Assembly (NCBI RefSeq): GCF_024494725.1
Contig: NZ_JANHDK010000001.1
Location: 744,001-808,000 of the forward strand
Source of the DNA: Haloplanus ruber
Lineage (GTDB): Archaea; Halobacteriota; Halobacteria; Halobacteriales; Haloferacaceae
Reading direction: 5' to 3'
Length of the DNA: 64,000 nucleotides
The position numbers and the translations under genes are program-made. Within the stretch, counting starts at the first letter, position 1; each line of letters opens with the position of its first letter. Shown piece by piece: positions 27,673 to 39,569 of this stretch. Under the pieces are notes generated by a model, which had not been told where the DNA came from, ran no database searches, and worked only from the letters and a program-made list of their open reading frames with translations.

Positions 27673-29856
27673 ATGGAGCGTCGCCACACACCGTTCCCGG
27701 CAATCGTCGGGCAGGAGGAGTTGAAGCGGGCGTTGCTTGCCGTTGGGACGAACGACGCGCTCGACGGCCTGCTGGTCCGCGGGGAGAAGGGGACGGCCAA
27801 GTCGACGGCCGTCCGAGCGCTGGTCGACCTGTTACCCGACCAACGTGCGGTGGCAGACTGCCCGTACGGCTGTCCGCCGGACGACCCGGAGCGACAGTGT
27901 GTGTCGTGTCGGGAGCGGGTCGACCCGCCGGTCGAGACGCGACCCGTCCCCCTCGTGACGCTCCCGCTGGGTGCGACCCGCGAGCGCGTGGTCGGGACGC
28001 TGTCGGTCGCCGACGCCCTTGACGGCGACGCGTCGTTCGATCCCGGCCTTCTCGCCCGCGCCAACCGGGGAGTCCTCTATATCGACGAGGTGAACCTCCT
28101 CGACGACCATCTCGTGGACGTTCTGCTGGATGCGGCCGCGAGCGGCGTCAACCGCGTCGAACGCGACGGCGTGAGCCGCACCCACCCGGCGGAGTTCACG
28201 CTCGTCGGCACGATGAACCCCGAAGAGGGGGACCTCCGGCCACAGCTTCGCGACCGGTTCGCCCTCCAGGCGACGGTCACGGGCTGTGAGGCCGTCGAGG
28301 ACCGCGTGGCTGTCATCGACCGCGCCCTCGACCGAAACGACGACCCCGAGGGCTTCGCGACGGCGTACGAAGCGGAGACCGACGCCCTCCGCGAGCGACT
28401 GTGCGACGCGCGACGACTCGTCGACGACGTGACGCTTCCCGAGGAGTTCAAAGCCGACATCGCCGAACTCTGCCGCGACGCGGGCGTCGACGGCCACCGG
28501 GCCGACATCGCCACCGCCCGCACCGCGCGGACGCTCGCGGCACTCGACGGCCGGACGAAAGTGCTCCGCTCCGATATCCGCGAGGCGGCGATGTTCGCGC
28601 TCCCCCACCGACTCCGGCGCCGCCCCTTCGACGACGAACCCGACCCCGACGACGTCCTCGACGATCACTTCGACGACGAGGACGAGGGGAACGGCTCCGA
28701 GGGCGACGGTGAGGAAGGCAACGCTGACGGCGACGGTGAGGGCGACGACGAGGGAGGGGGCGCTGACGGTGATGGCGACGGCGAGAGTGGAACGGAGGAT
28801 GCGGGCGACGGCGACGGACCCGAGGACGAACCGGGCGACGGCGACCGGGGGAGCGACGGGGACGGCGACGGACCCGAGGACGAACCGGGCGACGGCGACC
28901 GGGGGAGCGACGGGGACGGCGACGACGGACCCGACGACGGTCCCGCCCGGGAGCCGACGCCCTCGGGCGCCGATCCGTCGGGATCGGACGATGGCGACGG
29001 CAGGGACGGTGACGGGGAGGACTCCGACGGCGACACGGACGCCGACGAGGAAGCGACGCCGCTCGTCCCGGGCCAGCGGCGGGCGGAGGTTGGTGAGGCG
29101 GCGTCCCCACCCGTCGACGAGGTGACGGCGTCGACGGGCGAGGGAAGTGGATCGCGCGCCCGCGCGGAGGCCGCCGAGGGGTCGCGTGGCTCGCGGGTGC
29201 GGACCGAGCGTGCGGACCCGGGCGACGACGTGGACCCGGCGGCGTCGGTGCGGGCCGCCGCGGCCGCGGGGCGGACCGAGGTGGGCGAAGAGGACCTGCG
29301 GCGGTCGGTGCGACGCGGAACGGCGGGGACGCTCGTCGTCTTCGTCGTCGACGCGAGCGCGTCGATGCGCCCAGCCATGCGCGAGACCAAGGGGACGGTC
29401 ATGGCGCTCCTGCGCGACGCGTACGAGCGGCGAGACGAGGTGGCGTTCGTCGCCGTCGCCGGCGACGCGGCGGAGGTGTTACTCCCGCCGACGGACAGCG
29501 TCACGCTCGCGGCCCGCCACCTCAAGCAGTTGCCGACCGGCGACCGGACGCCCCTCCCGGACGGACTCGATACGGCGACCCGACTCGTGACCCGCTCCGA
29601 CGCGGACGCGGGACTGGTCGTCGTCGTGACCGACGGCCGCGCGAACGTCGCCGAGGGGAGTCCGACCGCGGCGACCCGTGCCGCGGCCGGCCGACTAGCC
29701 GAGAGTGACGCGTCGGTCGTCCTCGTCGACGCCGGCGACGGCGGTGCGGGCGTGACGGGCGTCATCGAGGCCGAGACCGGCGGGCGACGGATTCCCCTGT
29801 CCGAGCTTACCGCCGACGTCGTCGCCGACGCGGCGGCGTCGGCCGACGACGCCTAA
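27673..29856 (+). CDS. Fused ChlI/ChlD-type chelatase ATPase with VWA domain
   Basis: 727 residues joining both small subunits of a class I metal chelatase. Residues 1-330 are the AAA+ ChlI/BchI/CobS-like part, with Walker A GEKGTAKST (37-45), Walker B GVLYIDEVN (133-141) and a cysteine set C63, C67, C76, C79 that could bind zinc. Residues about 331-525 form an extremely acidic Asp/Gly/Glu linker with an 18-residue tandem repeat. Residues about 550-720 are a VWA domain with an intact MIDAS (VDASASM, near residue 560; VTDGRAN). It is the natural partner of CobN, which it faces divergently. Confidence 0.93.
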   Translation: MERRHTPFPAIVGQEELKRALLAVGTNDALDGLLVRGEKGTAKSTAVRALVDLLPDQRAVADCPYGCPPDDPERQCVSCRERVDPPVETRPVPLVTLPLGATRERVVGTLSVADALDGDASFDPGLLARANRGVLYIDEVNLLDDHLVDVLLDAAASGVNRVERDGVSRTHPAEFTLVGTMNPEEGDLRPQLRDRFALQATVTGCEAVEDRVAVIDRALDRNDDPEGFATAYEAETDALRERLCDARRLVDDVTLPEEFKADIAELCRDAGVDGHRADIATARTARTLAALDGRTKVLRSDIREAAMFALPHRLRRRPFDDEPDPDDVLDDHFDDEDEGNGSEGDGEEGNADGDGEGDDEGGGADGDGDGESGTEDAGDGDGPEDEPGDGDRGSDGDGDGPEDEPGDGDRGSDGDGDDGPDDGPAREPTPSGADPSGSDDGDGRDGDGEDSDGDTDADEEATPLVPGQRRAEVGEAASPPVDEVTASTGEGSGSRARAEAAEGSRGSRVRTERADPGDDVDPAASVRAAAAAGRTEVGEEDLRRSVRRGTAGTLVVFVVDASASMRPAMRETKGTVMALLRDAYERRDEVAFVAVAGDAAEVLLPPTDSVTLAARHLKQLPTGDRTPLPDGLDTATRLVTRSDADAGLVVVVTDGRANVAEGSPTAATRAAAGRLAESDASVVLVDAGDGGAGVTGVIEAETGGRRIPLSELTADVVADAAASADDA
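28809..28918 (+). repeat. 54-base tandem repeat in chelatase linker
   Basis: Two essentially identical 54-base units (18 codons, GPEDEPGDGDRGSDGDGD-like) follow each other inside the acidic linker of the fused chelatase gene; CGAGGACGAA recurs at 28821 and 28875. The reading frame is kept. Linker length is likely to vary between strains. Confidence 0.85.
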
Positions 29857-31085
29857 TCCCGCCAGACGTGGAGGCGATGGGCCCCGCGGGTGACACCCTC
29901 GTCGTGGTACTCGACGGGTTCCTCGACGACGGCGAGCGTCCCGTCACCGAGCGCCGCGGCCGACGCGATACCGGGAATCGGCTGCGAGTCGAGGTGACCC
30001 CGAGCCGAATCGAGGAGGTGGACGGCGTGGGTGTCCGCCGACCGCTCGCGGAAGTGTTGGGCCGAGGGGACGGCGAGGAGCGACCCGTCGACGGCGAGGC
30101 CGCGGGCGAAGCCGCCGACCTCGTGGGTCCAGGCCACGTCACCGCCGTCGACGGCGACGACCGTATGTTCCCGCGGGTGGCGGGCGTCCGGGTCGCGTGT
30201 CGATGCGGCGAAGGTGTTGCCCGTCACGAAGACGGCGGTCCCGTCGACGGCGGCGACGTGGGTCGGATAGGCGTAGACCGTCTCGCCGTCGACCGACCGC
30301 TCGCTCGCCAGGTCGACGCGCCACCGCTCGCCACCGTCGTGGTCGAGCAGGTAGCCGTGTTTGTCGCCGTGACTCGCGACGGCGATGCCGCCGTCGAGAA
30401 CCGCCACGTCGCCGACGCGGCGGTCGCCCTCCGTTCCGGGGTCCCAGTTGGCGAGGAGGGTCCCGGAGTCGGTGTCGAGGACGACCAGGCCGTGGACGTG
30501 GTCGGCCGAACAGCGGTTGTACGCGACGGCGACGCGCCCGTCGTCAGCAGCGAGGGAAATAGGTGAGGCGCGGGCGTGGTAGCGCCACCGAACCGTCCCG
30601 TCGGGGTCGATTCCGAGGACGACACTCGACCAGGTTCGCTCGTCGCCGTCGCGTTCGTACCGCCTGGCGGCGACGACCGTCGTGTCGCCGGCCACGGCGA
30701 CGTCGACGACGTAGGGCTGGAAAAGGAGGGACTCCCGGCTCGCCGTCCCGACGTCCGCGGACGTCTCGTGGCGCCACCGAACCGCGCCCGTGGCGGGCGA
30801 CAGCACGGCGACGCGCCCGTCGGGGCCACGCTGGCCGACGACGAGTCGGTCGGCAGCCGCTGCCAGCGATACGGCGTAGCGCTCGCCAGCCGCCGAATCG
30901 CCCGGCCCCGTCCAGCCGTCGACGGGCGTCGCGTCGGGGTGGTGGGCGGTGACGTGCCCGTCGGGGCCACCCGTGACGATCCGGCCGTCGACGATGGACA
31001 CCGCGGAGCGCGACCAGTTGTGACGGCTCCCCGCAGGGGGAAGGTCGTCTAGGAGACGGCGCGCCGGGTCGGCGAGTGTGGACAT
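29853..31085 (-). CDS. Beta-propeller (PQQ/WD-like) protein at end of cobalamin operon
   Basis: 410 residues from ATG 31085, which overlaps the preceding stop as TGATG. Repeated blade-like units are visible: IVTGGPDGHVTAHHPD, VVGQRGPDGRVAVLSPATGAVRWRHET, VVLGIDPDGTVRWRYHA, VVLDTDSGTLLANWDPG and LLDHDGGERWRVDLA, the W/D-G pattern of PQQ-like (BamB-type) propellers. There is no signal peptide, so it should be cytoplasmic. The stop overlaps the 3' end of the convergent chelatase gene by 4 bases. Its function in cobalt or corrin metabolism is unknown; position alone links it. Confidence 0.85.
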   Translation of the reverse strand: MSTLADPARRLLDDLPPAGSRHNWSRSAVSIVDGRIVTGGPDGHVTAHHPDATPVDGWTGPGDSAAGERYAVSLAAAADRLVVGQRGPDGRVAVLSPATGAVRWRHETSADVGTASRESLLFQPYVVDVAVAGDTTVVAARRYERDGDERTWSSVVLGIDPDGTVRWRYHARASPISLAADDGRVAVAYNRCSADHVHGLVVLDTDSGTLLANWDPGTEGDRRVGDVAVLDGGIAVASHGDKHGYLLDHDGGERWRVDLASERSVDGETVYAYPTHVAAVDGTAVFVTGNTFAASTRDPDARHPREHTVVAVDGGDVAWTHEVGGFARGLAVDGSLLAVPSAQHFRERSADTHAVHLLDSARGHLDSQPIPGIASAAALGDGTLAVVEEPVEYHDEGVTRGAHRLHVWRD

Positions 31086-31462
31086 CACTCCTCGGTCGGG
31101 AACGTCTCGTGGAGCGTGTGGTGAGCCTCGCCGAAATCGTCGAGCATGGCGTCGGTGCGTTCACGGAGACGGCGCACCGTGCGCTCGGCGTCGCGGACGG
31201 CGACGACCCGTCCTCGGAGATACGCTCCTTGGGGGTCGGTGGCGTCGGCGGCCATGGCCTCCTCCTCTAAGTCGATTAGGGCCGCTTCGAGGTGTCGCTG
31301 TATCTCGTCGAGCGTCTCGGCCTCGGCCAGCGCCGCGATGGGGCCGCCGGCCGCCAGTTCGTCGCCGATTTCGGCCTCGGCGTGTTGTTTGACGCTCTCG
31401 TCGACGGTGCCGGTCAGATTCATCAGTGCGAGTCGGAGTGCTTCGAGTTCTGCGCAAGCCAT
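31085..31462 (-). CDS. DUF3209 family protein
   Basis: 125 residues starting MACAELEALRLALMNLTG, the conserved start of DUF3209 proteins that accompany cobalamin genes in haloarchaea and some bacteria. It is helical and acidic (AEIGDELAAGGPIAALAEAETLDEIQRHLEAALIDLEEE), with Cys3 and a single His-containing C-terminus (GEAHHTLHETF). The start at 31462 overlaps the cbiX stop by one base and the stop overlaps the propeller gene start. Function is not established; guilt by association suggests a cobalt-corrin biosynthesis accessory. Confidence 0.88.
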   Translation of the reverse strand: MACAELEALRLALMNLTGTVDESVKQHAEAEIGDELAAGGPIAALAEAETLDEIQRHLEAALIDLEEEAMAADATDPQGAYLRGRVVAVRDAERTVRRLRERTDAMLDDFGEAHHTLHETFPTEE

Positions 31463-32673
31463 TATAGTGTCTGGTGTACGAGGTCGGAGACGATGCGGTC
31501 CCGGTCGAGGTGGGACGAGACGATGCGGTCGGTGTCGTCGGCGGTGACGCCGCCGTACCAGACGCCGTCGGGGTAGACAGCGACCATCGGGCCGTCGCCG
31601 CACTGGCCGAGACAGGAGGTGCGGGTGATCCGGGCGTCGCAGTCCTCGGCGTCGCGGACCTCCTGTCGGAGCCGTTCGATGACCGCCGCCGACCCGCTCT
31701 CGGCACACGTCTGGTTGGTGCAGACCGCCACGTGCTTTTCGGGTGCGTCGTGGACGTGCGGGTCGTCGTCGACGTCCTCGCGGTCGGCGTGTTCCGCCTG
31801 GTGGACGAGCGAGCGAAGCATCGCCCGCGCGCCCCCCTGGTCGTCCTCGTAGCCCGAGAGTTCGACCTTGTACTTGCAGGTGTCACAGGACATCTCGACG
31901 CTGTCGGAGCGGGCCGCCCGCCAGCGGTCGGCGAGGACGTCGACCACGCGGTCGTCGACCCCGAGGGGGTCGCCCGCACCCGCGGCGACGTACGGGTACT
32001 CGTCGTCGAAGGACTCAGCCGTGTCGACGATGCGGCCCGTCAGCGTCCCGTCGCCGAGCATGTAGGGAACGACCACCACCGCGTCCGGACGGCTCTTCGT
32101 GACGGTGTGGAGTGTCTCGTCGAGCAGCGGCGACGTCACGCCGATAAACGAGGCCTCGACACGGTGGAACTCGCGACCCTCGTAGAGGAGGCGCGCGAGT
32201 TTGTGGACGTCGGCGTTCGAATCCGGGTCGCTCGACCCTCGGGCGCAGACGACGACGGCTACGTCGTCCTCGGTCCGGTCGACCCCGAGGTCGGCCTCGA
32301 CGGCGCGAACACGGTCATCCAGCAAGTCCACGAGCGACGGGTGGACGCCCAGGTGTGAGCCGTAGTGGATCGTCAGGTCGTCGTGTTGGGCCCGCGCCGT
32401 CTGGACGGCTAGTGGCACGTCGTTTTTGACGTGACTCGCGCCGAACAGCGACAGCGGCACGACGGTCAGGGTCCGGCAGGCGGGCGCGAGCGTCTCGATA
32501 GCCTCCCCGATTGGTGGGTCCGCGAGTTCGAGGTAGGCCGCGTCGACCGGCAGGTCGAGTTCGGCTTCGAGGTCCGCCGCCAGCGTCCGCACCTGCTCGT
32601 TTGCCTTCTCGCGGCGGGAGCCGTGGCCAACGAGGAGGATCGCGTCGTCGTCGAGCGGTTGCTCGTCGATCAT
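31462..32673 (-). CDS. cbiX: Sirohydrochlorin cobaltochelatase CbiX fused to a 2Fe-2S ferredoxin-like domain
   Basis: 403 residues. Residues 1-255 are a two-half CbiX chelatase (ILLVGHGSRR with catalytic His17; GASHVKNDVP with His81), which inserts cobalt into sirohydrochlorin early in the anaerobic pathway. Residues 260-314 have CDTC (C263, C266) and a His/Asp-rich stretch (HQAEHADRED...HVHDAPEKH). Residues 315-403 are a thioredoxin-like [2Fe-2S] domain with C318, C323, C354 and C358 (VCTNQTC, SCLGQC). The start ATG 32673 overlaps the stop of the preceding gene by 4 bases. The fused domain could donate electrons or hold cobalt. Confidence 0.93.
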   Translation of the reverse strand: MIDEQPLDDDAILLVGHGSRREKANEQVRTLAADLEAELDLPVDAAYLELADPPIGEAIETLAPACRTLTVVPLSLFGASHVKNDVPLAVQTARAQHDDLTIHYGSHLGVHPSLVDLLDDRVRAVEADLGVDRTEDDVAVVVCARGSSDPDSNADVHKLARLLYEGREFHRVEASFIGVTSPLLDETLHTVTKSRPDAVVVVPYMLGDGTLTGRIVDTAESFDDEYPYVAAGAGDPLGVDDRVVDVLADRWRAARSDSVEMSCDTCKYKVELSGYEDDQGGARAMLRSLVHQAEHADREDVDDDPHVHDAPEKHVAVCTNQTCAESGSAAVIERLRQEVRDAEDCDARITRTSCLGQCGDGPMVAVYPDGVWYGGVTADDTDRIVSSHLDRDRIVSDLVHQTL

Positions 32674-33329
32674 CCCTCGGCCTGCTCCAGGCTCCGCAGC
32701 AGTTTCTGTCGACGCGTCGGTGCGAAGAGGTCGGTCGCTTCGCTTCCGTCGTACACCCACCGGCCGAACCGGTCCCCGGCCGCGTCGTCGACGCCGAACC
32801 AGTAGCCCCCGGAGGACGTCTCCGCGATGTCGTCGGTCGGGACGTCGACCGGGCAGGCGTCCAGACGCCCCTGGATCGTCTCCAGAAGCGTCCGGTCGTC
32901 GTGGACGAAGGAGATGCCGACGACGCCGGCCGAGGACTTGAAACAGACCGTCCCGCAACTCTCCAGGAGGCCACGGAGGAGTTGGCGGTTGGCGTCGGCG
33001 AGGGCGTCGAAGCGGTAACCACCCCGGTTCTCGCCCGTCGGGAGACCGAAGGCGGCGCTTCCCCGCGCGGCCACGTCGCCGGCGACGGTGACGTGGTACT
33101 CGTCCTCGGTTCGGGTGATCGACGTGTCGTGGGCGTACTCCCGTTCCGTCCGGTGGTGGTCGACGTCGCCGCCGCCCGCGATAGCGACGAGGCGGTCGGC
33201 ACAGCCCTCGTCCGGCGCTCGGACGGTGAGGTCGTCCGCTCGCACCTCGCCGTCGCCGGCGACGTGTCCCCAGAAGTAGGCCGTCTCGGGGTGGCACTCC
33301 AGCAGGGAGGACGGGCTGTCGGCGGTCAT
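32670..33329 (-). CDS. LAGLIDADG-fold-like protein in cobalamin operon
   Basis: 219 residues, acidic, cytoplasmic. Two segments resemble LAGLIDADG helices and the strands after them: FWGHVAGDGEV (residues 19-29, keeping the acidic residue) and LLRGLLESCGTVCF (117-130, with the acid replaced). The spacing of about 97 residues fits a two-motif monomer. It is embedded between a ferredoxin gene and cbiX with 4-base overlaps on both sides, so it is a stable operon member, not a mobile homing endonuclease. Function unknown; a missing corrin-pathway step or metal handling is possible. I recall similar proteins listed only as cobalamin biosynthesis proteins. Confidence 0.7.
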   Translation of the reverse strand: MTADSPSSLLECHPETAYFWGHVAGDGEVRADDLTVRAPDEGCADRLVAIAGGGDVDHHRTEREYAHDTSITRTEDEYHVTVAGDVAARGSAAFGLPTGENRGGYRFDALADANRQLLRGLLESCGTVCFKSSAGVVGISFVHDDRTLLETIQGRLDACPVDVPTDDIAETSSGGYWFGVDDAAGDRFGRWVYDGSEATDLFAPTRRQKLLRSLEQAEG

Positions 33330-33568
33330 GGCTCCTCCTGAACGGTGATGGCGTCGGGCGGGCAGGCCCGCGCGGCCAGGGTGGCGTCCTCGTAGTCGCC
33401 GTCGACGGTGGCGATCACCCGCTCGTCCGACCGCTCGACGCTGATCACGCTCTCGGCCGTGGGGTCGATAGTCGCGAGGCCGGTCTCGTCCTCGACGAAG
33501 CGGTCGTCGCGGGCGAGACAGGCGAAGATGCCGTCGCAGGCCTCGCGGTCGATTTCGATGCGGAACAT
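33326..33568 (-). CDS. Single-cluster ferredoxin
   Basis: 80 residues from ATG 33568 (MFRIEIDREACDG), one base after the CbiH-like stop; a start 10 codons upstream would overlap that gene further. Cysteines C11, C17 and C69 (ACDGIFAC, ARACPPDAI) give the C-x5-C...CP pattern of [3Fe-4S]/[4Fe-4S] mono-cluster ferredoxins. The operon position suggests electron supply to a reductive corrin step, for example reduction of a precorrin-6A analogue or cobalt reduction; this is inference. The stop overlaps the next gene by 4 bases. Confidence 0.85.
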   Translation of the reverse strand: MFRIEIDREACDGIFACLARDDRFVEDETGLATIDPTAESVISVERSDERVIATVDGDYEDATLAARACPPDAITVQEEP

Positions 33569-33569
33569 C

Positions 33570-34586
33570 TCAGTACTCGTACTTTCGCTCGTAGCCACGC
33601 GGCGTTACCATCCGGCCGTCCCAGACGTAGGTCTCGTCGTTGCCGACCAGTAGCGTCGTCGTCATGTCGACGAGATCCGACTCGCCGAGTTCGGGGAGGT
33701 CGCGCAGTTCCACGATTTCGATCTCCTCGTCCTCGCGGCCTGCGGCGTGGACGATTCCGACCGGCGTTTCGGGGTCGCGGTGTTCGAGGAGGATCTCACA
33801 GCACTTCTCGTAGTTCTCGCGGCGCTTGCGGCTCCAGGGGTTGTAGACCGCAATCGTGAACCCCTCCTTGGCGGCCGCGTGGAGTCGGGACTCGATGGTC
33901 GACATCGGCGTCAGATGGTCCGAGAGGCTGATGCTGACGGTGTCGTTCACGAGCGGGGCACCCAGGCGGGCCGCACACGACTGGGCGGCCGGCACCCCGG
34001 GTACGACCTCGAAGTCGACGGCGCTGGCCAATCCACCCTTCGACTCCAGAATTTCGAGTGCGAGGCCACCGAGCGCGTAGACGTTCGGGTCGCCGCTCCC
34101 GATGATGGCGACGTCGTTGCCGGCGAGCGCCCGGTCGACAGCCTCCTCCGTGCGCGACACCTCGCCGCACATCGGCGTCGAGTAGATATCCTCGGCGCCC
34201 TCGACGACGTCGTCCGGCAGGAGGTCGACGTACGTGGTGTAGCCGACGATATGCTCGACACCCCGGAGCGCCTCGATGGCTCGGGCGGTCATGCCACTCG
34301 GTTCACCAGGGCCGAGACCGACGGCGACGAGGCGGCCGGGGTCGGCGTCGAAGTCGTCGGCCGTCGCCGCGACGTTCTCGTCGGTCGTGTCGGATTTCGA
34401 CCCGCCGCACGTCGATCCCGACGTCTCGGTGCTCGACCCGCCACAGGTCGACTCCGAGGTATCGGCCGACTCCGTGTCGGCCTCAGTCGCTCCGCCACAC
34501 TTCGACTCCGAGGCACCGGTCGACTCCGTGTCGGCCTCGGTCGTCGCGCCACACGTCGATCCGTCGTTCGCGTTGCTCTCGCTCAT
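33570..34586 (-). CDS. cbiH: Precorrin-3B C17-methyltransferase, CbiH-like, with Cys-rich N-terminal repeats
   Basis: 338 residues. Residues 1-75 are a Ser/Thr/Glu-rich extension with four CGG/CGA motifs at C12, C30, C48 and C60 (periods 18, 18 and 12). The methylase follows: LVAVGLGPGEPSGMTARA, GSGDPNVYALGGL, VVPGVPAAQSCAARLGAPLVNDTVSISLSDHL and YNPWSRKR, matching CbiH/CobJ. It is adjacent to a second CbiH-like gene. C17 methylation with ring contraction is the family role. The extension is probably flexible and could bind cobalt or an iron-sulfur cluster. Confidence 0.9.
   Translation of the reverse strand: MSESNANDGSTCGATTEADTESTGASESKCGGATEADTESADTSESTCGGSSTETSGSTCGGSKSDTTDENVAATADDFDADPGRLVAVGLGPGEPSGMTARAIEALRGVEHIVGYTTYVDLLPDDVVEGAEDIYSTPMCGEVSRTEEAVDRALAGNDVAIIGSGDPNVYALGGLALEILESKGGLASAVDFEVVPGVPAAQSCAARLGAPLVNDTVSISLSDHLTPMSTIESRLHAAAKEGFTIAVYNPWSRKRRENYEKCCEILLEHRDPETPVGIVHAAGREDEEIEIVELRDLPELGESDLVDMTTTLLVGNDETYVWDGRMVTPRGYERKYEY
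34409..34556 (-). repeat. Repeats encoding Cys-Gly-Gly motifs in CbiH N-terminus
   Basis: Imperfect tandem units, mainly 54 bases (18 codons), encode C-G-A/G followed by Ala/Thr/Glu/Asp/Ser-rich spacers. Cysteines fall at codons 12, 30, 48 and 60 of the gene starting at 34586. Confidence 0.8.
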
Positions 34587-34588
34587 GG

Positions 34589-35404
34589 TTAGAAGTCCTC
34601 AACGTCACGCCCGCCGCGCGGGGTGACGAGATACGTTTCGAAGTCGTTGCTCCACGTGTCGGTCTCGTGGGTGCCGACGAGGATGGACGTCCCCATCCCG
34701 CCGACCTCTTCCTCGTGGGCCGTCGCGTCGCCGAGGGTCGTGACGGTGAACGCCTCGCCGTCGACGTTCCGTCCGGCGTCGCCGCGACCGGCGTCGTTGA
34801 AGATGCCGACCGGCACATCGTCGGCCCGTTCCTCGCGGAGGATGGTGATCGCCCGCTCGTAGTTCCGCCAACAGTTGTAGAGGACGATCACGAAGTTGCT
34901 AACCGCGGCCGCCCGGAGTTTCTCCTCGATTTCGTCCCAGCCTCGCCACTTATCGGACAGCGAAATCGTGCAGAAGTCATTCGAGAGGGGTGCGCCCATC
35001 ATGGCCGCGCCGCCGAGCGCCGCGGTGACGCCGGGGACGATTTCGATGGGGACGTCCGTCGCGTCGTCCGCGTCGGCCATCGTAAACACGAGGTCGGACT
35101 TGCCGTAGACGTTCGGGTCGCCGCCCGAGACGTGGGCGACGTCCTCGCCAGCGCGGACGCGTTCGAACGCCTCACGGGTGAGTTCGACCTGCTGGCCCAT
35201 CGACGAGCGGACGACCTCTGGGTCCGTGTCGCGCTCCTCGCCCTCCGGCGGGAGGGTCCCGTCGTCCCGGAGAAACTCCTGGTAGAGATTCGAGGCGATG
35301 ACACAGTCGGCGCCGGTGATGACCTCCCGGGCGCGCTGGGTCATGTGTGCGGGAAGTCCGGGGCCGATGCCGACAACGTAGAGCGTCCCGTGACCGTCGG
35401 TCAT
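34589..35404 (-). CDS. Second CbiH-like precorrin C17-methyltransferase
   Basis: 271 residues with the same methylase features as its neighbour but no Cys-rich extension: LYVVGIGPGLPAHMTQRA, HVSGGDPNVYGKSD, IVPGVTAALGGAAMMGAPLSNDFCTISLSDKW and LYNCWRNYERAI. It is close to CbiH/CobJ, yet divergent from the downstream copy. The two may form a heterodimer, split ring contraction and methylation, or one may methylate another carbon such as C1 in the absence of CbiD. It overlaps cbiG by 4 bases and ends 2 bases before the next gene. Confidence 0.88.
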   Translation of the reverse strand: MTDGHGTLYVVGIGPGLPAHMTQRAREVITGADCVIASNLYQEFLRDDGTLPPEGEERDTDPEVVRSSMGQQVELTREAFERVRAGEDVAHVSGGDPNVYGKSDLVFTMADADDATDVPIEIVPGVTAALGGAAMMGAPLSNDFCTISLSDKWRGWDEIEEKLRAAAVSNFVIVLYNCWRNYERAITILREERADDVPVGIFNDAGRGDAGRNVDGEAFTVTTLGDATAHEEEVGGMGTSILVGTHETDTWSNDFETYLVTPRGGRDVEDF

Positions 35405-36369
35405 CGACCCACCGCCACGGTGACCGCATCGTCGTGTCGCCGCTTCTCGATGAGGAGTTCGTGCTCGCGGCCGGCGGCGATGGCGCTCGCCTCCGCGATG
35501 CCCGGCCAGCCGATCAGCTCCTTTGACTTCGAGGGTGTCGGCCCCTCGAAGGCCTCTAAGGTCTCCTTATCGAGGTATGCCACTCCGACGTCGAACTCCC
35601 GTGCGGCCTCGATGAGGCCGGGTTCGTCCTCCTTACGGGTGGCCGTCGCGACGAACTCCACGTCGTCGGGTGTGAGACCCGCCTCTTCGAGGGCCGTTCG
35701 CCAGGCCGCGAGGAACTGGTCGGCGTCGGCGCCGGAGACGCTCCCGGTCCCGAGGACGACGCCGTCGTCCGTGTTCCGCTTGAGGACGGTCACGTCGTCG
35801 CCGACGAGAACCGCCCGCGGCCCGTCGAGGCGGGCGACCGGCCCCAGGTCGTCGTCGAGGACCGCGAGGTTCGTCGCCACCGTCGAGTCGCCGTTGACGA
35901 CGTGCGTATCGAGCGCCTTCGCCCGACTCTCGACGCCTTGCTTGCCCGCCGCCTCCGACGCCGTCGTCATCGCGGGGACAGCACCGAGGCCGGCGAGGTC
36001 GCCTGCCACCTGATTCGCGCCGTGGTGGCCGCCGGTCAGTGGGATGGCCCACGTCAACTCCTCGTCGACGACGACCACCGCGGGGTCGTCCCACTTGTCG
36101 TCGAGGAGGGGCGCGGTCTTTCGCATGGCGATGCCGCTCGCCATCAGGCCGACGAAGCAGTCGTACTCGCCCCAGTGCTCCGCGAAGACGTCGCCGTGAT
36201 ATTCGAGGACGTCGATGCGTTCGTACTCGTCCGCGAGGCCGGCCTCGATCTCGGCGGCGGTGTCGAGTTTGCGCTCGAAGCCGATGATCGCGATTTCCTC
36301 GGCGACCTCCCCGTCGCTGTCGGGGGTGCTACAGCCGTCGTCCGTCGTGTCGGTAGTGCTCTCAGTCAT
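35401..36369 (-). CDS. cbiG: Cobalt-precorrin-5A hydrolase
   Basis: 322 residues from ATG 36369; a longer basic, Arg-rich upstream extension is rejected. CbiG opens the delta-lactone and releases acetaldehyde in the anaerobic pathway. The middle domain has DCFVGLMASGIAMRKTAPLL and the diagnostic PLTGGHHGANQVAGDLA; the C-terminal domain has VLGTGSVSGADADQFLAAW, VEFVATATRKEDEPGL and GVAYLDKETL. Presence of CbiG argues for cobalt-containing (early insertion) intermediates. It overlaps cbiF by 8 bases and the next gene by 4. Confidence 0.93.
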   Translation of the reverse strand: MTESTTDTTDDGCSTPDSDGEVAEEIAIIGFERKLDTAAEIEAGLADEYERIDVLEYHGDVFAEHWGEYDCFVGLMASGIAMRKTAPLLDDKWDDPAVVVVDEELTWAIPLTGGHHGANQVAGDLAGLGAVPAMTTASEAAGKQGVESRAKALDTHVVNGDSTVATNLAVLDDDLGPVARLDGPRAVLVGDDVTVLKRNTDDGVVLGTGSVSGADADQFLAAWRTALEEAGLTPDDVEFVATATRKEDEPGLIEAAREFDVGVAYLDKETLEAFEGPTPSKSKELIGWPGIAEASAIAAGREHELLIEKRRHDDAVTVAVGR

Positions 36370-37198
36370 GGTTGGTCTCGGTCGTGGTGTCGCTCTCGGG
36401 GTCGCTTTCCTCGTCCTCGCCCTCACCGTTCGCCCAGTCGCCGTAGAGGTAGGACCGCTCGTACCCGGCGCCGGTGGCCGCCTCGCCGATGATCACCAGC
36501 GCCGAGGCGCGGTAGCCGGCCGTCTCGACCTTCTCGCCGATGGTGGCGATGGTGCCCTGGATCACGTCCTCGTCGGGCCAGGAGGCGTGATAGACGACCG
36601 CGACGGGCGTGTCGGGGTCGTGGCCGTCCGCCAGCAGGCGGTCCATCGTCTCGCTCACGGCGTGGGTCCCCAGGTAAATGCAGGTCGTCACGTCGCCGAA
36701 GCCGACGAAGTCGCTGATGTGGTCCTCCTCGGCCGAGAGGGTCTTGCCCTGGGGCCGGGTGAAGGCAACGTGGTTGGCCACCTCGTTGAGCGTCAGTTGC
36801 GTGCCGAGGGTGGCGCTGGCGGCGAACGCCGACGTGACGCCGGGCACGAAATAGGTCGGAACGCCCTCACCTTCGAGGGCGTCCATCTGCTCTAAGGCGG
36901 CGCCGTAGACGGCAGGGTCGCCGCTGTGGAGGCGCGCGACCGTCCGCCCGGCCTCGTAGGCGTCGGTCATCAACGGCACCAGTTCTTCGAGGTCCTTGCC
37001 GACGCTGTTGACCTGCTCTGCGTCGGCACAGTACGCCTCCAGCAGTTCGCTGTTGACCAGCGAGCCGGCGTGGACGACGAGGTCCGCGTCCTCGACGAGG
37101 CGCTTCCCAGTGACGGTGAGCAGTCCCGGATCGCCGGGACCGGCGCCGATGAAGGGAATCCCCTCCCGCAGGTCGCCGGCGGTGTGATCGCCACTCAC
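36362..37198 (-). CDS. cbiF: Cobalt-precorrin-4 C11-methyltransferase
   Basis: 278 residues. IPFIGAGPGDPGLLTVTGKRL, VVHAGSLVNSELL, VARLHSGDPAVYGAALEQM, VPGVTSAFAASATLGTQLT and FTRPQGKTLSAEE are the characteristic CbiF/CobM blocks. The last about 25 residues are an acidic haloarchaeal tail (GEGEDEESDPESDTTTETN). It overlaps cbiL by 4 bases upstream and cbiG by 8 downstream, so translation is coupled. Confidence 0.95.
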   Translation of the reverse strand: MSGDHTAGDLREGIPFIGAGPGDPGLLTVTGKRLVEDADLVVHAGSLVNSELLEAYCADAEQVNSVGKDLEELVPLMTDAYEAGRTVARLHSGDPAVYGAALEQMDALEGEGVPTYFVPGVTSAFAASATLGTQLTLNEVANHVAFTRPQGKTLSAEEDHISDFVGFGDVTTCIYLGTHAVSETMDRLLADGHDPDTPVAVVYHASWPDEDVIQGTIATIGEKVETAGYRASALVIIGEAATGAGYERSYLYGDWANGEGEDEESDPESDTTTETNHD

Positions 37199-37902
37199 GC
37201 CGACCCCTCCCGCTCGCCGTCCTCGAACGCGGCGGTCGCTAGGTCGCGGTCCAGTCCCTCCCGCTCGGCGTAAGCGAGCGTGTAGTAGTCACGCTCGACC
37301 ACCTCGGTGGGGTCGCGCGTGACCGTCGTCTCCCCCTGTTCCATGAACAGGCGGCGGCCGTACCGGACGTCGTAGCCGGCGTCGACGAGTTGCTCGTGGG
37401 TGGTCACCGCGTCGGTCACCTTGAACAGGATCATCCGGTCGGGACCGATTGGCGCCGCGCCGTCGGCGGCCTCGCGGAGCGAGAGGCCGGTGCCAGCCTC
37501 GATTTCGACGCCCAGCGCCGTCGCGAACGCGGTGACGGCGCTCACCCCCGGAACCACCTTCACGCCCACGTCGGGGTGGAAGGCCGACAGCGTCCGCCGG
37601 AGGTGCCCGAACGTCGAGTAGACGTTCGGGTCGCCAAGGGTGACGAAGGCAACGTCGTCGTCGGCCGCCGTCTCCGCGACGGCGTCCGCGGCCGTCCGCC
37701 ACGCTCGCCGGAGTTCATCAGGGTCACGGGTCATCGGGAAGTCCAGGTCACCGAGTTTCGACGCCGGGACGTACTCGCGGGCGACGGTCCGCGAGAGGCG
37801 GCCGGGCGAGTAGACCGTCGAGACGGAGTCGAGGACGCGCTTGCCGCGGACGGTGATCAGGTCGGCCTGGCCCGGGCCGAGACCGACGCCGTAGACGGTC
37901 AC
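37195..37902 (-). CDS. cbiL: Precorrin-2 C20-methyltransferase
   Basis: 235 residues: YGVGLGPGQADLITVRGKRVL, VYSPGRLSRTVAREYV, VTLGDPNVYSTFGHL and VVPGVSAVTAFATALG, with MILFKVTDAV as a late strand, all matching CbiL/CobI. It methylates C20 of (cobalt-)precorrin-2, the committed corrin step. The 4-base overlaps with cbiT and cbiF indicate a tightly coupled operon. Confidence 0.94.
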   Translation of the reverse strand: MTVYGVGLGPGQADLITVRGKRVLDSVSTVYSPGRLSRTVAREYVPASKLGDLDFPMTRDPDELRRAWRTAADAVAETAADDDVAFVTLGDPNVYSTFGHLRRTLSAFHPDVGVKVVPGVSAVTAFATALGVEIEAGTGLSLREAADGAAPIGPDRMILFKVTDAVTTHEQLVDAGYDVRYGRRLFMEQGETTVTRDPTEVVERDYYTLAYAEREGLDRDLATAAFEDGEREGSA

Positions 37903-38456
37903 GCGAGACCGCCCCCGTCGCGGCGCCCGACGACGACGTAGACGGGGTTGTCCGCCTGAAAACTCGTCGCGCCGGCGAGTTCGTAGCCGTGATTCACCTG
38001 AATCTGGAGGACCTCCGAGAGGAGGTCACGGTCGCGGAAGGCGTCGACGGCACGGCCCGCCACCTCGACGCGGGAGACGTTCATCACCACCCGGTCGACG
38101 TCCGTCGCCACGGCGTGATCGAGGACGGCTTCGAAGTTCCGACTCCCGCCCAAGAACATGGCGTCCGCGTCGTCGGGAAGGCCCGCCGGCGCCTCCGCCT
38201 CGCGAAGCGATACCTCGGCGTCGTACTCGTTTGCGGCGAGATTCTTCCGCGTCACCGCCAGTCGGTCGGGCTTGCGCTCGATTGCGGTCACCCGACCGGC
38301 ACGGCGGGCCGCCTCCACCGTGACCGCGCCGGTACAGGAGCCAACGTCGACGAAGTGATCCGCGGGTTGCAGGTCCAACTTCCGGAGCGTTACCCCGCGA
38401 ATCTCCGCTTTCGTCGGCCCGGCCTTCGCGTCGTGTGGAAGCGCTACCTGAGGCAT
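37899..38456 (-). CDS. cbiT: Cobalt-precorrin-6B C15-methyltransferase (decarboxylating)
   Basis: 185 residues from ATG 38456 (MPQVALPHDAKAGPTK), the conserved CbiT start; an ATG 4 codons upstream is possible. It is a class I SAM methyltransferase with HFVDVGSCTGAVTVEAAR, VTAIERKP and DADAMFLGGSRNFEAVL. It methylates C15 and decarboxylates the C12 acetate. CbiE, its C5 partner, is encoded separately in the cobN operon. It is first gene of the 11-gene overlapping run and has a clear TATA box just upstream. Confidence 0.94.
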   Translation of the reverse strand: MPQVALPHDAKAGPTKAEIRGVTLRKLDLQPADHFVDVGSCTGAVTVEAARRAGRVTAIERKPDRLAVTRKNLAANEYDAEVSLREAEAPAGLPDDADAMFLGGSRNFEAVLDHAVATDVDRVVMNVSRVEVAGRAVDAFRDRDLLSEVLQIQVNHGYELAGATSFQADNPVYVVVGRRDGGGLA

Positions 38457-38500
38457 CACCACCACCATTTCGCGCCCACATGAAAACAATTTTGCTTGTC

Positions 38501-39457: not shown

Positions 39458-39569
39458 TCTACTTGTGTTTCTGTCGGATGCGGCCGGTTTCCAAAGTTCG
39501 GTTTCGTTATCGCAAGCGGTATTGTTTTTGCGTGGGAGGTAATCGGCACCGACGGGAAGTGATCTCGAC

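Follow-up and report, generated by a model that had tools for sequence, protein, structure and literature searches.

A domesticated LAGLIDADG-fold protein in the cobalamin operon of haloarchaea and its possible role beside the cobaltochelatase CbiX

Introduction

The transcription factor WhiA (DUF199) is a domesticated LAGLIDADG protein which works with the Fe–S protein WhiB. To our knowledge, nucleic acid has remained the target of every domesticated LAGLIDADG protein described so far (WhiA, HO and the RNA maturases).

The closest described locus is found in the cobalamin cluster of Haloferax volcanii. There, HVO_B0055 lies between cbiX1 (HVO_B0054) and HVO_B0056, with cbiH2 as HVO_B0057, and is listed as “function unassigned” among four candidate genes for two pathway gaps; the main text gives it no fold or function, and LAGLIDADG is not mentioned there (PMC8305020). 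Term searches of an open-access library revealed no paper tying LAGLIDADG to this gene. The His-rich tail of the cobaltochelatase CbiX-L has been proposed to serve in metal storage and delivery and is dispensable for chelation (PMC7689651).

The protein considered here, called LAG below, is encoded in a 64,000-nucleotide stretch of haloarchaeal DNA, which is referred to as the window. Since cbiX1 is HVO_B0054 and cbiH2 is HVO_B0057 in a shared gene order, LAG is probably the orthologue of HVO_B0055, which has the same place in its cluster; LAG orthologues are found in at least nine Haloferax genomes. A fold and testable roles can now be given to a gene which is listed as unassigned in a model species and belongs to a pathway where two gaps are known.

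The locus and its conserved gene order

The genome of the window (G000) is haloarchaeal and 99.7% complete, and LAG is present there as a single copy. The features of the locus are collected in Table 1.

Table 1. Features of the LAG locus, in positions of the window
Feature	Position	Strand	Description
PQQ/BamB-like beta-propeller protein	29853-31088	(-)	last gene of the operon
DUF3209 protein (PF11483)	31085..31462	(-)	
cbiX cobaltochelatase	31462..32673	(-)	MXCXXC motif, and thioredoxin-like [2Fe-2S] domain at the C-terminus; next gene after LAG in 80/80 loci
LAG	32670..33329	(-)	219 aa from ATG; LAGLIDADG fold in two repeats, catalytically inactive as judged by the motifs
Cys125...Cys129 pair (CGTVC)	32943..32957	(-)	both invariant
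Motif 2, LLRGLLESCGTV	32946..32981	(-)	residues 117-128; Cys125 at catalytic position in all 62 sequences
Motif 1, FWGHVAGDGEV	33243..33275	(-)	residues 19-29; D26 at catalytic position, variable in the family (D/S/N/G/A)
Ferredoxin (Fer4_15)	33326..33598	(-)	gene directly before LAG in 80/80 loci
cbiH2, cbiH1, cbiG, cbiF, cbiL, cbiT	33570..38489	(-)	remaining cob operon, upstream of LAG
Promoter element, CAAGCAAAATTGTTTTC	38482..38498	(-)	window copy of the consensus given in the text

The 4-base overlaps with both neighbours, from which the original prediction had argued for long co-selection, are indeed present in the window: the ferredoxin ORF overlaps the start of LAG, and the ATG of cbiX (32673-32671) overlaps its stop. 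In all 80 named loci, ferredoxin, LAG and cbiX follow one another in this order on the same strand, most of these loci showing the arrangement cbiT-L-F-G-H1-H2-fdx-LAG-cbiX-DUF3209-PQQ. The median gap on either side of LAG is -4, with exact 4-base overlaps in 56/75 and 48/79 cases. Neither intron or intein carriage nor variable insertion is seen, LAG being free-standing and in one place in these 80 loci. The beta-propeller gene closes the operon in 70 of the 80, and is missing from four LAG-less operons of a second type (type B, described below).

A LAGLIDADG fold with an altered catalytic site

The single window sequence (P0001) has no significant match in Pfam or NCBIfam, and the LAGLIDADG signal becomes visible only with orthologues. 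LAGLIDADG_3 (PF14528) was matched by 7 of 18, then by 44 of 62 of them (best values 1.9e-5 and 3.1e-5), and the Pfam family Hom_end by 7 of the 62. When the 62-sequence alignment was compared by hhalign with six haloarchaeal intein endonuclease domains, 185 columns were aligned with both motifs covered (E 9.8e-6). A search of PDB sequences with the LAG profile (hmmsearch) gave chance hits only, so that a fold comparison was needed. The AlphaFold2 model (pLDDT 93, pTM 0.90) shows the order H-E-E-H-E-E-H twice, and its Foldseek hits 1-43 in the PDB are all LAGLIDADG proteins, including I-Tsp061I (7.5e-8), the TliVMA intein, the bI3 maturase, I-DmoI, I-SceI and WhiA (8dy9_I, 4.6e-6). The BFVD library of viral structures agrees with this fold. 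Pfam matches of the orthologues, profile–profile alignment and predicted structure all place LAG in the LAGLIDADG superfamily by its modelled fold, as first proposed from the motifs, and not in an unrelated one.

The two motifs foreseen about 97 residues apart both exist, and start at residues 19 and 117, which is 98 residues apart. The absence of the catalytic acid from motif 2, noticed in the window, extends to the whole family: in the motif alignment, position 8 is Cys125 in 62/62 sequences and is followed by the invariant Cys129. The acid of motif 1 turns out not to be conserved either, position 8 being D in 35 sequences, S in 19, N in 4, G in 3 and A in 1. The pair of acidic residues at position 8 of both motifs, which marks active endonucleases, is thus not found in the LAG family. 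With Cys in one motif and D/S/N/G/A in the other, this family cannot form the canonical two-metal active site of LAGLIDADG enzymes, and canonical cleavage appears very unlikely from these motif changes. Also invariant, or nearly so, are W20, R63, A66, H67, R73, P97, R106, R119, E123, K131, G138, S140 and H143, the stretch S172-S173-G-G-Y-W-F, and R206-R207-K209.

Distribution and selection

Among 292 genomes of the class, LAG is present in 145 and CbiG in 150, all of the former falling within the latter. LAG thus occurs in 145/150 CbiG-positive and 0/142 CbiG-negative genomes (Fisher 1.6e-78, ignoring phylogeny). The linkage to cbi genes which was to be looked for in other genomes is, with the 80/80 loci, near absolute. 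The LAG-less operons are five only, from about four lineages (genomes G046, G061, G044, G095 and G289). Orthologues at 55-86% identity are found in many genera, and dN/dS measured against three congeners is 0.19-0.24; together with the invariant gene order, these values show that the arrangement is not due to chance, and the long co-selection proposed initially is supported. No relatives of LAG were found outside the haloarchaeal order in 295 genomes of the phylum, nor in viral contigs. The LAG family is haloarchaea-specific and nearly always stands alongside B12 synthesis; roughly half of the haloarchaea have it as a fixed part of a metabolic operon, and these are almost exactly the ones which make B12. 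LAG is almost certainly a LAGLIDADG protein of two repeats in a single chain, domesticated and catalytically dead, whose gene was acquired by the haloarchaeal cobalamin operon a single time and retained under selection.

The most divergent LAG, that of G045, lies outside the cob cluster, between two cation-efflux (CDF) genes and a rhodanese gene (L118:8444-11453). Nearby (L118 13361-15442) is an ORF resembling a dCTP deaminase, which probably contains an intein.

CbiX forms, DUF3209 and a possible role in cobalt insertion

The form of CbiX varies with the presence of LAG (Fisher 3e-6). CbiX bears the [2Fe-2S] domain in 76 of the 77 LAG-containing loci where it could be assessed, three further loci being truncated or frameshifted. 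The four cob operons devoid of both LAG and ferredoxin (G046, G061, G044 and G289) encode a CbiX whose tail is His-rich and which has no [2Fe-2S] domain. The exception, L054, combines LAG with a His-tailed CbiX and has no DUF3209 gene. Strict mutual exclusion of LAG and His-tailed CbiX was therefore rejected, and the swap between them is not a strict one.

Haloarchaea also have cob operons of another type (type B; L111, L112, L113 and L115), in which ferredoxin, LAG and DUF3209 are missing, and CbiX has no [2Fe-2S] domain and a very His-rich tail. COX1 is missing from three of the four type-B genomes, which suggests an anaerobic link of these operons, and is present in G289. An aerobic/anaerobic explanation is only a lead, since G289 has COX1.

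The complete, single-contig genome G095, in which LAG was found nowhere, has a His-tailed CbiX gene directly between ferredoxin and the [2Fe-2S] form of CbiX, at the expected place of LAG (L114:11442-13884). This extra CbiX is 60-64% identical to the CbiX of its own family vs 45-51% for type-B CbiX, and may thus have arisen by duplication rather than by import. Across the 292 genomes, the set with DUF3209 equals the LAG set plus G095, save for a 39-aa fragment in G275 and a hit below the cut-off in G289.

The CbiX forms, G095, the G045 neighbourhood, DUF3209 and the CbiX-L tail suggest that the process which they have in common is cobalt insertion, and the comparative tests lean towards metabolism rather than regulation. 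LAG both co-occurs with CbiX and is adjacent to it in 80/80 loci, as a partner would be. We tentatively favour the reading that LAG, no longer a nuclease, may assist CbiX in the handling of cobalt or tetrapyrrole, over a regulator or a substitute for CbiD or CbiJ. The former cleft for DNA and catalytic metal, which would now carry Cys125, Cys129 and conserved Arg and Lys residues, would bind Co2+ or a polyanionic tetrapyrrole, which LAG would pass to CbiX. The ferredoxin, the [2Fe-2S] domain of CbiX and DUF3209 could be redox or assembly partners of LAG and CbiX, and the His-rich CbiX tail might take over the role of LAG in operons without it. The link between LAG and CbiX may also be indirect, since the presence of LAG is likewise correlated with that of DUF3209 and of the [2Fe-2S] domain. 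It is conceivable, with a likelihood somewhat short of even, that a homing-endonuclease scaffold has had its DNA-cutting Mg2+ site turned into a site handling cobalt or tetrapyrrole in B12 biosynthesis, the fold being used outside nucleic-acid biology. A role in cobalt insertion, if true, would amount to a metabolic use of the fold of a selfish element.

A conserved element before cbiT

The element TTtN3TAN3CAANCANAATTGTTTTa is conserved 24-27 nt before the start of cbiT in 37 LAG-containing loci, with about 29 bits over 17 positions, plus the upstream TT and TA. It is placed where the TATA/BRE of a haloarchaeal transcript would be expected, provided that this transcript is leaderless. In shorter form, the element before cbiT in these loci is given as CAANCANAATTGTTTTa; a weaker copy precedes cbiM in the window (39513-39529, + strand).

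Such a long and near-invariant element, along with the match of the LAG fold to WhiA, raises the question of a WhiA-like DNA-binding regulator which would bind the cbiT promoter element of its own operon without cutting it. Perfect copies were found only at the cob promoters of LAG-containing genomes, where the median PWM score is 35.6 bits, and the five LAG-less operons carry one or two mismatches. All five nevertheless keep the element, which scores 18-25 bits where the local background reaches at most 15, 20, 13, 5 and 11 bits, so that it stands well above background in four; the maximum of 20, in G061, probably reflects the own cbiM copy of that genome. The element precedes cbiM in two LAG-less genomes as well. 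Among genomes with a divergent LAG, G016 and G045 have scores of 19-21 bits and G208 has a perfect element (33 bits); the core variant CAANCGTAATTG is shared by G045, G016 and the LAG-less G044. The lower scores in LAG-less operons could stem from a relaxation of selection once LAG was lost, or from divergence alone. Being kept in operons without LAG, the element does not need it, though LAG may contribute.

The putative DNA-facing surface also speaks against such a regulator, since the saddle is acidic. The net charges of its hairpins are -3.4 and -3.9 in LAG vs +0.7 and +0.3 in haloarchaeal intein endonucleases, values which are only indicative, the segment limits being taken from the model and the alignment. 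The beta3-beta4 hairpin of half 2 contains 0.1 K+R vs 4.0 D+E per protein in LAG, and 6.7 K+R in the intein endonucleases. LAG is also devoid of a WhiA-type HTH domain. The regulatory reading is judged rather unlikely.

The gap at CbiD and CbiJ

CbiD (PF01888) was detected in 6 control genomes and in 0/292 haloarchaeal genomes, and CbiJ (PF02571) in 0/11 haloarchaeal genomes tested. The gap in the cobalt-early pathway is thus class-wide, CbiD being absent from every haloarchaeal genome searched. LAG might be thought to stand in for one of these enzymes (CbiD, EC 2.1.1.195; CbiJ, EC 1.3.1.106), the more so as HVO_B0055 is one of the four candidates in the H. volcanii description (PMC8305020). 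However, LAG itself matches neither PF01888 nor PF02571, and its fold is that of LAGLIDADG proteins, with no SAM or NAD(P)H fold. Moreover, the LAG-less G046, G061, G044 and G289 keep cbiT-L-F-G-H1-H2-X, also without CbiD and CbiJ. The gap exists in operons with and without LAG and is therefore not explained by it, which makes a substitute enzyme improbable.

Comparison with known systems

Candidate functional analogues of LAG are the cobalt chaperone CobW (COG0523) and, in bacterial CbiX-L, the His-rich tail, with cobalt supply to the cobaltochelatase and conserved Cys or His residues as the common traits. LAG has no homology to either of them, and its proposed role is drawn solely from genomic swap patterns.

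LAG resembles the homing endonucleases (I-Tsp061I, I-DmoI, I-SceI and the haloarchaeal intein endonucleases) by its single-chain two-repeat fold, both motif helices and its length. It differs from them by the lost catalytic acids, the fixed locus, the acidic saddle and the co-selection with a metabolic operon. That LAG is a still mobile or active endonuclease, residing in the operon by chance, is highly improbable, although it shares its fold with intein endonucleases and is clearly homologous to them, given the lost acids, one copy per genome in one fixed place, no relatives found in viral contigs, purifying selection and an operon which LAG does not interrupt.

WhiA differs from LAG by its C-terminal HTH domain, for which LAG would have no room, its two modelled LAGLIDADG repeats using up all 219 residues; the tie to a biosynthetic operon and the haloarchaea-only distribution are further differences. 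Both are domesticated LAGLIDADG domains paired with an Fe–S protein and, if the regulatory role were true, LAG would be an archaeal counterpart of WhiA.
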